Shown: one piece after another, positions 30,488 to 34,117 of the stretch | Layout of the letters: each line of letters starts with the position of its first letter | How positions within the stretch are numbered: position 1 is the stretch's first letter | Origin: Paenisporosarcina sp. HGH0030 | Lineage (GTDB): Bacteria > Bacillota > Bacilli > Bacillales_A > Planococcaceae | Direction: 5' to 3' | NCBI RefSeq assembly: GCF_000411295.1 | Contig: NZ_KE150422.1 | Location: forward strand, 124,001-188,000 | Length of the DNA: 64,000 bases | Notes under the pieces: model-generated | Told to the model about the DNA's origin: nothing | The model's input: only the letters and a program-made list of their open reading frames with translations | Database searches by the model: none | Made by a program: the position numbers and the translations under genes

Positions 30488-30573
30488 TTCCTACTCACCT
30501 CCCCTTTATATTCTCTCGTTTAATTCCTCTAGTAGTAGTTTACATGAAAAAAACGTCGAAAAATGTCGATAAT

Positions 30574-30588
30574 GTTGGGAAAGTTTTC
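30574..30588. promoter_or_regulatory. GTTGGGAAAGTTTTC element upstream of first regulator
   Basis: The nonamer GTTGGGAAA also occurs upstream of the second regulator (32575), both between divergent small genes and RRNPP-type regulator genes. It follows two ATGTCGA/ACGTCGA-like half repeats at 30553-30570. It is a candidate binding site for one or both regulators. Confidence 0.4.
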
Positions 30589-30634
30589 ACATTCAGGGCA
30601 TATATATATCATTTTTATGAAATAAATTTCTTGA

Positions 30635-30657
30635 TTAAACTTTTGTTTTAAGTTTAA
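30635..30657. promoter_or_regulatory. Dyad TTAAACTT-N7-AAGTTTAA near first regulator promoter
   Basis: A perfect 8-base inverted repeat in the AT-rich promoter region, about 70 bases before the regulator start and next to a TATAGT -10-like hexamer. It is not followed by a U-run, so an operator is more likely than a terminator. Confidence 0.35.
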
Positions 30658-30726: not shown

Positions 30727-32016
30727 ATGAATAACTTCGGACATGTGATTAAACTTGAGAGAATTAGAAGGAATATGAAGCAAATTACATTAGCTCAAGG
30801 GATTTGTACTCCCTCCTACCTAAGTAAAATTGAAAACAATTCCATCGTTCCAAGTCAAGAAGTGGTCAATTTACTATTAAGCCGACTCGACATTGCGATC
30901 AACCAAAACAAAAGTTTAGACGACGAAAGTTATCTGAAGCAAATTCGTGAGATATATTTCAATGCCGTCATGAACAAAGACCGCGAACTCACAGCTATAG
31001 CGTTAAAAGAAATTAATAATGAACGTTACTTATTTAAAGATTCTTCAAATTTTTATACATATCAGCTCATGGTGCTCAGATTAACTTTGATTGTGCAAGA
31101 TGTTCAAAATGACACAAGTGAACTGATTATGGCATTATCTGAGCTATCCAGTAACTTTGATAACTACCAGATGTTTTTATTTAATTCTAATGTCGGCAGT
31201 TACTATTCTTTTTTGATGGATTATAACTTAACTCTTCAATCCTATGAAAAGGCAATTTCTTATTACAAAAAAATCAATATTGAGAAATGGGAAGAAGCCG
31301 ATTTCAATTATCTTTTAGGACATTGTTATCTAACTCAGCAGAGATGGGTCATTTCAATAGAATACATCCAAAAATCTCTAGAGTTTTTCAAGAGCGGATT
31401 TTTCAACACTCGTGTGATTGAATGTTACTTAATTTTGGCTTATGCACAAGAATTCTCGTTCCAATATGAAGAAGCTTATGAAAATCTACTGCTCGCACAA
31501 AAAATAGCATCCCAACTTAATCTTGTTGAACACTTCCCAATCATTACACAGAACTTAGGGAATTCTGCGTCAAGAAGGGGTTTGCCAGGTGAAGCAATAG
31601 AATTCTATTTAAAAAGTCTTCAATCGCGCAACACTAACGAAGAAAAATTGCTACCTATATATTCGCTCGTAAAAGAATATTCTAAATTAAGAAACTCGGC
31701 TGAAGTCATTAAATGGTGTAAGGAAGGTTTATCATTAATAGATAATAATCAGAATCCCAGTCAGAAAACATTTTTTCACCATTTAAATGTTTACTTGGCA
31801 AGAGAAACTGACTCAACGATATTCGAAAAAGTAGCTATTGATGCTTATAATTTCTTTCAGGAACTTAAAGATTACCGCCATGCTCATAAATATGCGCAAT
31901 TGTTGGGCAACTTTTATTATGAAAACAATAAATATAAAAACGCAGCCAAATATTTCGTATTATCTAATGCAAGTATGTTTAACAAAAATAAAATGAACCA
32001 TTGGGAAGAATTATAA
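30727..32016 (+). CDS. HTH-TPR regulator of RRNPP type, no adjacent peptide (orphan)
   Basis: 429-residue predicted cytoplasmic regulator. The N-terminal HTH_3/XRE domain (residues ~5-60) reads IKLERIRRNMKQITLAQGIC, then the recognition region TPSYLSKIENNSIVPS. The rest is helical with tetratricopeptide-like units, for example NYLLGHCYLTQQRWVISIEYIQKSLEF, YEEAYENLLLAQKIASQL and RGLPGEAIEFYLKSLQS. This is the PlcR/NprR/Rgg (RRNPP) architecture, where the repeats bind an imported signal peptide. Unlike its paralogue at 32688 there is no pro-peptide gene after it; a 21-base-stem terminator follows immediately. AAAGGAGG precedes the ATG. Confidence 0.82.
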   Translation: MNNFGHVIKLERIRRNMKQITLAQGICTPSYLSKIENNSIVPSQEVVNLLLSRLDIAINQNKSLDDESYLKQIREIYFNAVMNKDRELTAIALKEINNERYLFKDSSNFYTYQLMVLRLTLIVQDVQNDTSELIMALSELSSNFDNYQMFLFNSNVGSYYSFLMDYNLTLQSYEKAISYYKKINIEKWEEADFNYLLGHCYLTQQRWVISIEYIQKSLEFFKSGFFNTRVIECYLILAYAQEFSFQYEEAYENLLLAQKIASQLNLVEHFPIITQNLGNSASRRGLPGEAIEFYLKSLQSRNTNEEKLLPIYSLVKEYSKLRNSAEVIKWCKEGLSLIDNNQNPSQKTFFHHLNVYLARETDSTIFEKVAIDAYNFFQELKDYRHAHKYAQLLGNFYYENNKYKNAAKYFVLSNASMFNKNKMNHWEEL

Positions 32017-32028
32017 AAATTCAAATCA

Positions 32029-32078
32029 AAAAGCCTGTAACTATTTCCCGAGGTCGGGGGAAATAGTTACAGGCTTTT
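32029..32078. terminator. Long-stem bidirectional terminator
   Basis: Perfect 21-base inverted repeat starting AAAAGCCTGTAACTATTT, with an eight-base loop and U-tracts on both strands, between the first regulator and the convergent DUF3006-like gene. Confidence 0.9.
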
Positions 32079-32124: not shown

Positions 32125-32421
32125 TCAGCTAGCCGTTGTATAAACTAAACAACCATGTTCGTAATCAATATAGTAACTGTTAATTTTTTGTGCAGTGGAA
32201 ACAGAATCTGTTTCTTTCTGTTTATTTGCAGCACGTTTGTTCACTTTTGAGATATGAAAGCCTTCTTCCTGAATGTCTACTAATAATACGTCGCCAACTT
32301 TCATATCAGAAGTTAAATCATCTGTTGGAACGACCAATACATTTGATTCACTAGGAAATTCCAAGAGAACTGCTAAATCATCCTGAAATCGATCCAATTT
32401 ATACATTCTACCTGTAAACAT
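32125..32421 (-). CDS. DUF3006-like small protein
   Basis: 98 residues. The first half, MYKLDRFQDDLAVLLEFP followed by VLVVPTDDLTSDMKVGDVLLVDI, is a small beta-barrel resembling DUF3006, proteins often encoded with secreted hydrolases; the second half is a charged tail ending in YYIDYEHGCLVYTTAS. It has no signal peptide. AGGAG lies nine bases upstream of the ATG. It is divergent from the second RRNPP-type regulator and shares its control region, so it may be a target of that circuit. Function unknown. Confidence 0.6.
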   Translation of the reverse strand: MFTGRMYKLDRFQDDLAVLLEFPSESNVLVVPTDDLTSDMKVGDVLLVDIQEEGFHISKVNKRAANKQKETDSVSTAQKINSYYIDYEHGCLVYTTAS

Positions 32422-32574
32422 ACTGAACAGCTCCTTTTTAAATGATAATTTGCTTGTTGAAAGATAAAAATTGCTAAATATTCATAATAAACGTAGAATT
32501 TGAAGAAATACTAATTCATTAACTAGTTACAATATAATCATAATTCGTTAAGATGGAATAAGAAAGAAAAACAG

Positions 32575-32636
32575 GTTGGGAAACTTTTTTCCAAAACACG
32601 CGTTTTATTATAGGTATTTAAGTTTTGTTTCCCAAC
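32575..32636. promoter_or_regulatory. Inverted GTTGGGAAAC elements upstream of the second regulator
   Basis: GTTGGGAAAC at 32575-32584 and its exact complement GTTTCCCAAC at 32627-32636 bracket 42 bases in the divergent region between the DUF3006-like gene and the regulator. GTTGGGAAA also lies before the first regulator. The pairing suggests looping or cooperative binding by a dimeric regulator. Confidence 0.45.
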
Positions 32637-32687: not shown

Positions 32688-33977
32688 ATGAATAATATCG
32701 GTTTGCTCATCAAAATGTCCCGCATACAACAAAATATGAAACAAGTTACGTTAGCAAAAGGAATCTGTTCCACTTCCTATTTAAGCAAGATTGAGAATAA
32801 CCAGACGGTTCCAAGCGAAGATGTCCTGCAGCTTTTATTGGAAAGATTAAATCTGGATTATGAGGATCTCTCCACTGAAGAGGAAACAGAGTTCTTATCT
32901 GAGCTTTATCATCTTTATAAAGATGCAATCATTAATCGAAATAAGGAAGAGATTCTGGAGAAGTTGAATTCATTTAAGGAAAGAAATTTTCTTTTTAAAG
33001 AAGAGACTAACTTTTTCACATATAACCTCTATCTTTTTCGTCTGTTTCTAATTACAGAGACAGAACAGGAAATCTTAAAAAACTTGATGGAAGCATTGGA
33101 TCAAATGAGTGAGAACTTCGATGAGCGCCAACACTTTTTATTTAAGTTTAATTGTGGAATACTTTTACATGTTGAACAGTATTATAAAGAGTCACTTAGT
33201 TATCTTGAATATTGTTTAGAACTTCTTACAGCTTTTCATTTAGAAGACTGGGAAATTGCAGATTTCTATAATGTTTTAAGTATTTCATACCTCGCTAATA
33301 ATCATTTTCTAAATACAATTGAATACTCCACTAAAGCTCTTAATTTTTATAAAGACAATTTAATTTTCAAGAGAGCGATTGATTGCTATATTGTTATAGG
33401 CATTTCTCAGACAATGACTGCAAAGTACAAAAGTGCTGAAGAAAGCTATTTGTTTGCGAAAAAGCTTACAAACGATTTGAAGTTGAGAGAATATGAAGGT
33501 ATAATTACCCAAAATTTAGGTTTCCTTTATGCTCAAAAGAACAATCATATTAAAGCCATAGAATATTATATTGAAAGTTTGAATAGTATGAAAGATACCG
33601 AAGGTTACTTATTAACTATCTTCTCTATTGTAAAAGAATATTCTAAACAGAAAAAAATTGATAAAATTCTTGAGTGGTGTAAAAAAGGATTAGATTTGTT
33701 AGAAGCAAATCCTTCGGAAAAAATCCATTCATATTATTATCACTTTTCGATTTATAGCATTATGCATAACAATGATTTAAAAGATGAATGTCTTTATAAG
33801 ACTTCAATTGAACACTTCGAAAGTACAAAGGATTATCGATATGCCAATAAATATGCTATTAAATTAGCTGATTTATATAGTTACCACAGGAAATACAAAA
33901 ATTCTTCTTTAATGTATCAAAAAGCATTGGAATATCATTTTTCACAAAAATCTATTACTTACTTGGAGGAATTATAA
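32688..33977 (+). CDS. HTH-TPR regulator of RRNPP type with cognate pro-peptide
   Basis: 429-residue paralogue of the protein at 30727; both begin with MNN, share KQ(I/V)TLA(Q/K)GIC and SYLSKIENN in the HTH domain, and end in KYKN...EEL. After the XRE-type HTH (residues ~5-60) the chain is all helical with TPR-like units such as DFYNVLSISYLANNHFLNTIEY, AEESYLFAKKLTNDLK and HIKAIEYYIESLNSM. Its stop codon overlaps the start of a secreted pro-peptide gene, the layout of PlcR-PapR and NprR-NprX systems. It is predicted to bind the re-imported peptide and control transcription of nearby or distant genes. GGTGG precedes the ATG. Confidence 0.85.
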   Translation: MNNIGLLIKMSRIQQNMKQVTLAKGICSTSYLSKIENNQTVPSEDVLQLLLERLNLDYEDLSTEEETEFLSELYHLYKDAIINRNKEEILEKLNSFKERNFLFKEETNFFTYNLYLFRLFLITETEQEILKNLMEALDQMSENFDERQHFLFKFNCGILLHVEQYYKESLSYLEYCLELLTAFHLEDWEIADFYNVLSISYLANNHFLNTIEYSTKALNFYKDNLIFKRAIDCYIVIGISQTMTAKYKSAEESYLFAKKLTNDLKLREYEGIITQNLGFLYAQKNNHIKAIEYYIESLNSMKDTEGYLLTIFSIVKEYSKQKKIDKILEWCKKGLDLLEANPSEKIHSYYYHFSIYSIMHNNDLKDECLYKTSIEHFESTKDYRYANKYAIKLADLYSYHRKYKNSSLMYQKALEYHFSQKSITYLEEL

Positions 33978-34117
33978 TGAAAAAGAAATTAGCAGTTATG
34001 TTATTCGCAGCAGTTATTATTCTTGGGTTTTCTACGCAAGACCGTACTCATGCGGATTTCCAAATACCTAAAATCACAAGTATCAAATCACCTACATTCA
34101 TTGCTCTAAACAACTAA
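33977..34117 (+). CDS. Secreted 46-residue signalling pro-peptide (RRNPP partner)
   Basis: Begins at the ATG overlapping the regulator stop (TAATG), with GGAGG seven bases upstream. The 46 residues are a Sec-type signal peptide (KKK, then LAVMLFAAVIILGF), a polar bridge STQDRTHA, and a mature part DFQIPKITSIKSPTFIALNN. A type I signal peptidase site after THA is plausible. Size, order and export signal match PapR/NprX-type precursors, whose C-terminal segment is processed outside the cell and re-imported by oligopeptide permease. The active peptide is probably within the last 5-10 residues (ending TFIALNN). No homologue recognised. Confidence 0.8.
   Translation: MKKKLAVMLFAAVIILGFSTQDRTHADFQIPKITSIKSPTFIALNN

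Follow-up and report, generated by a model that had tools for sequence, protein, structure and literature searches.

At the locus, in a window of 64,000 nucleotides from Paenisporosarcina sp. HGH0030, a receptor gene (32688 to 33977, forward strand) is followed by a 46-codon propeptide gene (33977 to 34117, forward strand), and the two share one base: within the TAATG overlap, the last A of the receptor's TAA stop codon (33975-33977) is the A of the propeptide's ATG. The GGAGG ribosome site of the small gene (33965 to 33969, forward strand) falls within the last codons of the receptor gene. The receptor, 429 amino acids long, joins an HTH domain (residues 8-61) to a sensing domain of the nine-TPR type, as seen from its fold match, an AF2 model and Pfam, where HTH_3 (7.5e-11; 42.3 bits, cut-off 23) and TPR_12 (1.6e-07) lie above their cut-offs. 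The 46-residue protein begins with a signal sequence (about residues 1-26) and has no match to any Pfam or NCBIfam model at an E value of 1; the case for its gene comes from co-conservation. The overlap, the domains, the GGAGG site and the secreted-type small ORF had been described in a sequence-only reading of this DNA, and ORF positions, Pfam matches and gene layout bear them out. That receptor and propeptide form a real pair, beyond chance, is confirmed.

The same reading, right about the pair, overlooked a tandem orphan receptor, a candidate operator and a within-species exchange. The orphan (30727 to 32016, forward strand) also has 429 amino acids, is 36% identical to the paired receptor and has no peptide gene; directly behind it, at the place expected for one, is a 20-pair stem-loop (32030 to 32077). 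A DUF3006 gene (32125 to 32421, reverse strand) lies between the two receptors and is kept in seven genomes, as are two Spo0A-box-like heptamers before the orphan (CGTCGAA and TGTCGAT; 30554 to 30570, forward strand). Orphan, DUF3006 gene and paired receptor occur together in seven of nine Paenisporosarcina genomes, the locus being absent from G002 and from G008, an assembly 81% complete. The genome has another receptor-propeptide pair of this family elsewhere (L002; G000:C1:2183270-2184517), whose propeptide ends in EEEIPRPVIELK.

Co-conservation of the propeptide gene and its core

Relatives of the receptor were sought in 261 genomes of the family, 76 of which gave a match at 1e-40, and in 398 genomes of the class, 66 of which did so at 1e-15; plasmid records added 10 more. 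Twelve of 134 receptors were excluded for scoring below 110 bits or for odd length (for example, the broken L147), which gave a set of 122; five loci without a usable match (L005, L006, L007, L015, and L032) were left out, the stop-broken L117 was not counted as a receptor, and of the nine weakest places from the family-genome search, not included at first, one (L146) was added later. A propeptide was scored where an ORF of 25 to 75 codons started between −5 and +11 of the receptor stop and had Lys or Arg in its first 8 residues and a hydrophobic stretch. Such an ORF lies at the stop codon of 79 of 100 distinct related receptors above 150 bits. Among 180 unrelated ORFs from these loci, each 150 codons or longer, it lies behind 5, and the stop-broken family receptor L117 accounts for one of them. 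The GGAGG site is present in 78 of these 79 receptors (L095 lacks it) and in 8 of the 180 control ORFs; 18 of the 100 receptors have neither ORF nor GGAGG, and three (L028, L102, and L106) have GGAGG alone. The propeptide starts between −4 and +3 relative to the receptor stop in 80 of 84 paired receptors. The conserved C-terminal Glu codon that forms the GGAGG is spelled GAG in all 78 scorable paired receptors (baseline, 28% of all Glu codons in paired receptors) whereas 12 of 15 receptors with no peptide gene have GAA (Fisher 1e-12). The count leaves aside 29 of the 122 rows, in which the motif is missing. From the ORF counts and the spelling of this codon, we infer that the small gene is translated and maintained by selection.

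The prospect raised in the sequence-only reading, that homologues might consistently lack a secreted ORF, is answered by the 122-row tree, on which 84 receptors have a peptide gene and the 38 without one are confined to a few clades (their distribution takes 7 changes, or 5 at the least when counted by starred branches, versus about 33 for shuffled labels), on a tree that was built by a quick method, has several long branches and is not independent of kinship. Genus g34 of family f16 (L127-L145) is orphan throughout, all 16 intact receptors being without a peptide gene and having the forward operator box described below at 128 to 132 bp upstream. Two further loci are broken: a stop truncates the propeptide gene of L106, and at L117 an intact propeptide gene follows a receptor with an internal stop.

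The 83 distinct propeptides have in common a positive start, then a hydrophobic stretch and then a shared core. The pattern P[RKE]x[TIVKSLFM], picked after viewing the sequences, occurs behind the hydrophobic stretch in 75 of the 83, against a mean of 12.3 and a maximum of 25 when the sequence after residue 18 was shuffled 2000 times. The window's version of this core is QIPKITSI (propeptide residues 29-36; 34061 to 34084, forward strand), which is likely the pheromone region and which plausibly sits directly after the signal-peptidase site; IPKITSI is the part common across the receptor family. The end of the propeptide varies between genera while the core stays. TFIALNN, which had been read from the sequence as the mature tail, is thus not the family-wide conserved part: of the seven orthologues in the genus, six keep it loosely and L012 lacks it, and we demoted it as sole candidate peptide in favor of the core. 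Two distant propeptides from another family (L148 and L149; f14/g58) have SEPDHPKIV in three tandem copies, which points to the same core; repeats within nprX genes are known (PMC5199041), and the known NprX peptide is SKPDIVG (PMC5641580). The receptors of L148 and L149 have a box pair of the operator type upstream.

Placement of the receptor in the NprR/Rap clade

A single-sequence PDB search with the paired receptor placed NprR at the top (2.7e-9) and PlcR lower (1.9e-4). In a search with the family profile, a designed TPR repeat protein outscored all natural chains, among which NprR reached 2.1e-33, Rap 7.5e-31 and PlcR 2.6e-13. The AF2 model of the paired receptor (pLDDT 92.4) forms a TPR superhelix that matches NprR over 346 residues (Z 32.3, rmsd 3.3; aligned residues 64-418), a tie with the best two Rap matches (Z 32.0 and 31.1); AimR matches more weakly (Z about 19-20), yet is still among the best matches, and PlcR stands at Foldseek rank 46. 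The peptide-anchoring asparagine of RNPP proteins corresponds to Asn276 (codon at 33513 to 33515, forward strand), aligned with Asn275 of NprR by hand count, and is Asn in 121 of 122 receptors (84/84 paired, 7/7 tandem-orphan, 16/16 g34-orphan, and 14/15 other orphan receptors). In RapF, the equivalent residue is needed for peptide binding and has been described as strictly conserved in RNPP proteins (PMC3601957).

The receptor therefore shows sequence, fold and layout features of the superfamily (a C-terminal TPR superhelix, the anchoring Asn and an adjoining exported-propeptide gene) and of the NprR/Rap clade (a domain of the nine-TPR type whose closest solved relatives are NprR or Rap), plus an N-terminal HTH domain, a feature of NprR as against Rap. 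The nine-TPR clan of RRNPPA receptors has been described as comprising NprR of the Bacillus cereus group, Rap and QssR (PMC12700828). We conclude that the receptor is an RRNPP receptor from a divergent branch of the NprR/Rap clade. The earlier assignment to an RRNPP-type pair holds: gene layout and fold favor it, as do the RNPP asparagine and the joint conservation of the two genes in many species. The choice of PlcR-PapR as the model is not supported, and the word "undescribed" is right only in part, in that NprR-NprX is a described subfamily and the present system a divergent branch of that clade.

In PlcR-PapR, the peptide is the C-terminal end of the propeptide. A pair of this type, with a five-TPR receptor and TFIALNN as the peptide, would share the gene order seen here (a receptor with HTH and TPRs, and an exported peptide encoded behind it), could explain why PlcR is found by sequence and would give meaning to the loose conservation of the propeptide end within the genus. 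It is scarcely credible given a receptor of 429 residues whose residues 64-418 align with NprR, the far weaker profile and fold ranking of PlcR, and an end that changes between genera around a constant core; the five TPRs of PlcR in the literature differ from the nine-TPR type seen here, and PlcR was ruled out as nearest relative. Rap-Phr resembles the present system in its equal fold match to the TPR part and its downstream peptide gene, but Rap lacks an HTH domain, whereas the receptor here has one and a candidate operator as well; the HTH domain rules out Rap proper.

NprR-NprX is alike in most of its layout: an HTH domain and a TPR superhelix of similar length (423 residues there, 429 here) with the RNPP asparagine, an exported propeptide encoded directly behind the receptor (43 and 46 residues), and a small peptide with a central Pro (SKPDIVG and QIPKITSI). 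It is unlike the present system in sequence, with about 17-28% identity and several NprX-contacting residues that differ, and in that a tandem orphan twin and a two-box operator with a 42-bp spacer are found here. Identity is 28.2% over 99% to a plasmid-encoded receptor of Priestia koreensis FS-1, for which plasmid NprR-NprX systems have been reported; the reference NprR was compared by structure only (17-18%). For comparison, the NprR limit of RRNPP_detector is a best cluster hit of at least 30% identity over 80% to the reference NprR.

A full bifunctional NprR would go further, blocking sporulation through Spo0F without peptide and activating genes with it, as the nearest family does (PMC4970707). 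Four NprR positions (D107, Y118, E188, and Y223) are each reported to abolish the effect on sporulation when changed to Ala (PMC4970707). E188 alone among them is kept, as Glu in 82 of 84 paired receptors, and the positions of D107, Y118 and Y223 hold mostly other residues, in a remote alignment that may be off by at least one residue. Spo0A is encoded in the genome and, with the Glu, speaks for such a function; with three of four Spo0F-contact positions not kept, the receptor appears to lack the residue set of the bifunctional Spo0F phosphatase, so that we regard this reading as unlikely and do not claim a Rap-like second function.

NprR has been reported from 21 genera (PMC9765709), and RRNPP_detector yielded 34 high-confidence clusters (PMC10075063). 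The main text of the latter paper does not name Planococcaceae, Sporosarcina or Lysinibacillus, and in the open-licence literature we found no paper on Planococcaceae with RRNPP or on Sporosarcina with NprR. The present data extend NprR-type signaling to a broad family branch, with dozens of readable receptor-peptide pairs. In a tethered (read-through) model of receptor and propeptide of L050, the peptide was not placed (pLDDT below 50) and gave no docking.

A candidate operator at the receptor promoters

An alignment of seven upstream regions brought out a 10-bp inverted repeat with a 42-bp spacer before the paired receptor, GTTGGGAAAC (32575-32584) and GTTTCCCAAC (32627-32636), which we consider its candidate operator (32575 to 32636). 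The candidate operator of the orphan (30574 to 30635) combines GTTGGGAAAG (30574-30583) with the weaker TTTCTTGAT (30627-30635). The half-site GTTGGGAMA, picked after viewing the sequences and allowed one mismatch on either strand within 350 bp upstream, is found at 88 of 122 receptors, compared with a mean of 14.1 and a maximum of 23 in 100 rounds of first-order resampling (not an exact dinucleotide shuffle); one of the 122 upstream stretches is only 126 bases long. On the forward strand alone it is found at 86 of 122 (60/84 paired and 26/38 unpaired receptors), and it is missing on both strands in 34, including L002, the second pair of the same genome. All 15 upstreams with convergent box pairs, seven of them genus orthologues, have a distance of 52 to 54 bp. 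A second box matching at least 6 of 9 bases occurs at offsets 52, 53 and 54 in 42, 23 and 8 of 87 cases, respectively, and at 0 to 3 for each other offset from 40 to 65; the best second box between offsets 20 and 99 falls uniquely at 52-54 in 46 of 86, ties in 19 and lies elsewhere in 21, a signal that is weak outside a few clades.

The box sequence varies with the HTH helix, in a manner that also follows kinship: Lys34 is present in 84 of 86 receptors with the forward box and 24 of 36 without it, and Asn38 in 79 of 86 and 10 of 36, respectively. In one clade of 13 receptors, 11 lack GTTGGGAMA and have SYLSRIENG as the helix; all 13 have GAAAG/CTTTC at 46 to 48 bp, against 0 of 109 other upstreams and a resampled mean of 0.025; counted from full box ends, this spacing equals that of the GTTGGGAMA boxes. 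A distance of 52 to 54 bp is about five DNA turns, which would place the two boxes on the same side of the helix. Together with its peptide, NprR forms a tetramer that is thought to bind two DNA sites (PMC4970707), and the AimR operator has two inverted boxes 25 bp apart (PMC6458997), so that a wide two-box operator fits the family. AimR-AimP, the arbitrium system, is alike in its HTH receptor and in an operator whose two inverted boxes stand unusually far apart (PMC6458997), and unlike in the length of the spacer (25 bp there versus 42-45 bp here), in being a phage system and in its weaker fold match. By title and abstract, the open-licence literature yielded no NprR counterpart for a two-box operator with a long spacer. 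We take these patterns as strong sequence evidence that the receptors may bind two-box elements at their own promoters, and a concrete operator with a spacer longer than that of AimR lets the DNA-bound state of an NprR-type receptor be tested.

The repeat could instead be the site of another regulator or a leader RNA hairpin, since a conserved TATAAT at 32533 would place it inside the transcript and, within the genus, the two 10-base arms match perfectly and could form a stem. We find this quite unlikely: beyond the genus the two arms are no longer equal and mostly fail to pair, no Rfam match exceeds the curated threshold, the box sequence tracks the HTH helix while the spacing stays, and the boxes accompany the receptors through three families at varied distances to the gene. 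The RNA leader was rejected on the Rfam result and the unequal arms.

Returning to the repeat as a receptor operator, the strict pattern occurs at only two places in the window's genome, both of them receptor promoters. Among 22 other genomes, three have no match at all, and the total is 17 matches before receptors and 9 elsewhere, versus 10 for a backward control, so that no further target is claimed; nine genus genomes were scanned as well. A looser pattern gives five places in the window's genome, including the receptor promoter, versus one for the control. In a model-free scan for inverted repeats, offsets 46-52 are highest, with a small effect. The plasmid relatives L120-L123 show no such box pair save a doubtful one far upstream of L122, and a promoter scan found 18 promoter-like sites versus 20.7 in shuffles, no excess. 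Several clades also have a short conserved TTAnCATG-like element about 34 to 35 bp before the forward box (16 of 86 at −35/−34; 23 matches overall). Two operator-pattern matches away from receptors (G126:C1:2066300 and G139:C1:2062622) are similar to each other and possibly belong to one conserved coding stretch.

Exchanged sensing domains and the proposed circuit

The window was compared, 100 bp at a time, with the corresponding region of G006, a genome catalogued under the same species. From 24.5 to 39.5 kb, this one genome pair is 92-100% identical save in three forward-strand segments: the sensing part of the orphan (31101 to 32000; 52-87% identical per 100 bp), the sensing part of the paired receptor (33001 to 33900; 67-85%) and the middle of the propeptide (34001 to 34100; 79%). 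Feature by feature, both HTH domains are 98.6% identical, residues 161-429 of the orphan 56.3%, and residues 71-160 and 161-429 of the paired receptor 78.5% and 79.7%, respectively; the propeptide is at 85.1%, the operator region at 99.6%, DUF3006 at 98.3%, the FAD-Rieske gene at 99.5% and NadB at 99.9%. Along the paired receptor, dS jumps from 0.07 to 1.6, and along the orphan from 0.02 to saturation; dN/dS of the paired sensing part between the two genomes is 0.07. The second receptor-peptide pair of both genomes shows no jump (dS 0.035 overall). The orphan of G006 groups with the orphans of two other species and that of the window with those of three others. We read this, for one genome pair, as suggesting that divergent functional alleles have been imported at the ligand-sensing parts alone, the orphan's included, as in pherotype switching. 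Such a pair of conspecific strains, with local differences almost confined to the sensing modules, amounts to a natural experiment on a change of signal specificity.

The exchange also bears on the standing of the orphan. The seven tandem orphans form one clade on the 122-row tree (support 100), and their ribosome-site position reads GGAAG in six of seven genomes, which, with the missing peptide gene, might mark the orphan as a decaying leftover without function. This is very unlikely: the ORF is open and Asn276 present in all seven genomes, dN/dS is 0.01-0.15 in between-species comparisons with unsaturated dS, the operator is kept, and the sensing part has been exchanged rather than eroded. 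Old orphan Rap receptors are known (PMC5199041), and an exchanged orphan sensing domain makes the question of what orphan receptors hear directly testable.

In our view, this is probably a quorum-sensing locus of the RRNPP type, belonging to the NprR/Rap clade, that combines one pheromone with two receptors. Conservation shows that the propeptide is translated from the ribosome site inside the receptor's end; it would then presumably leave the cell through Sec and be processed into a short peptide around QIPKITSI. An oligopeptide permease would re-import the peptide, the genome holding seven binding proteins of the SBP_bac_5 peptide-transporter type as candidates, and the peptide would bind in the TPR groove with the help of Asn276 and alter the receptor's hold on DNA. 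Each receptor would act at its own promoter through a pair of inverted boxes separated by about five helical turns and, as the orphan shares the box pair and has nearly the same HTH helix, the two probably regulate each other. Because the exchange between strains involves the sensing domains and the peptide and leaves the HTH domain and operator fixed, the signal may change with the output unchanged. More tentatively, and with somewhat more doubt than confidence, we suggest that the paired receptor and a conserved peptide-less listener share the same five-turn operator, that strains recombine sensing domains and peptide, and that the orphan could be an allele-typed receptor for eavesdropping or kin recognition.

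Four loci of the genus (L022, L025, L027, and L030) encode more distant HTH-TPR regulators of 405 residues. Each is followed by a small secreted-type ORF with the ending IRPPV or HPPV, and these ORFs are candidates for a second peptide family.
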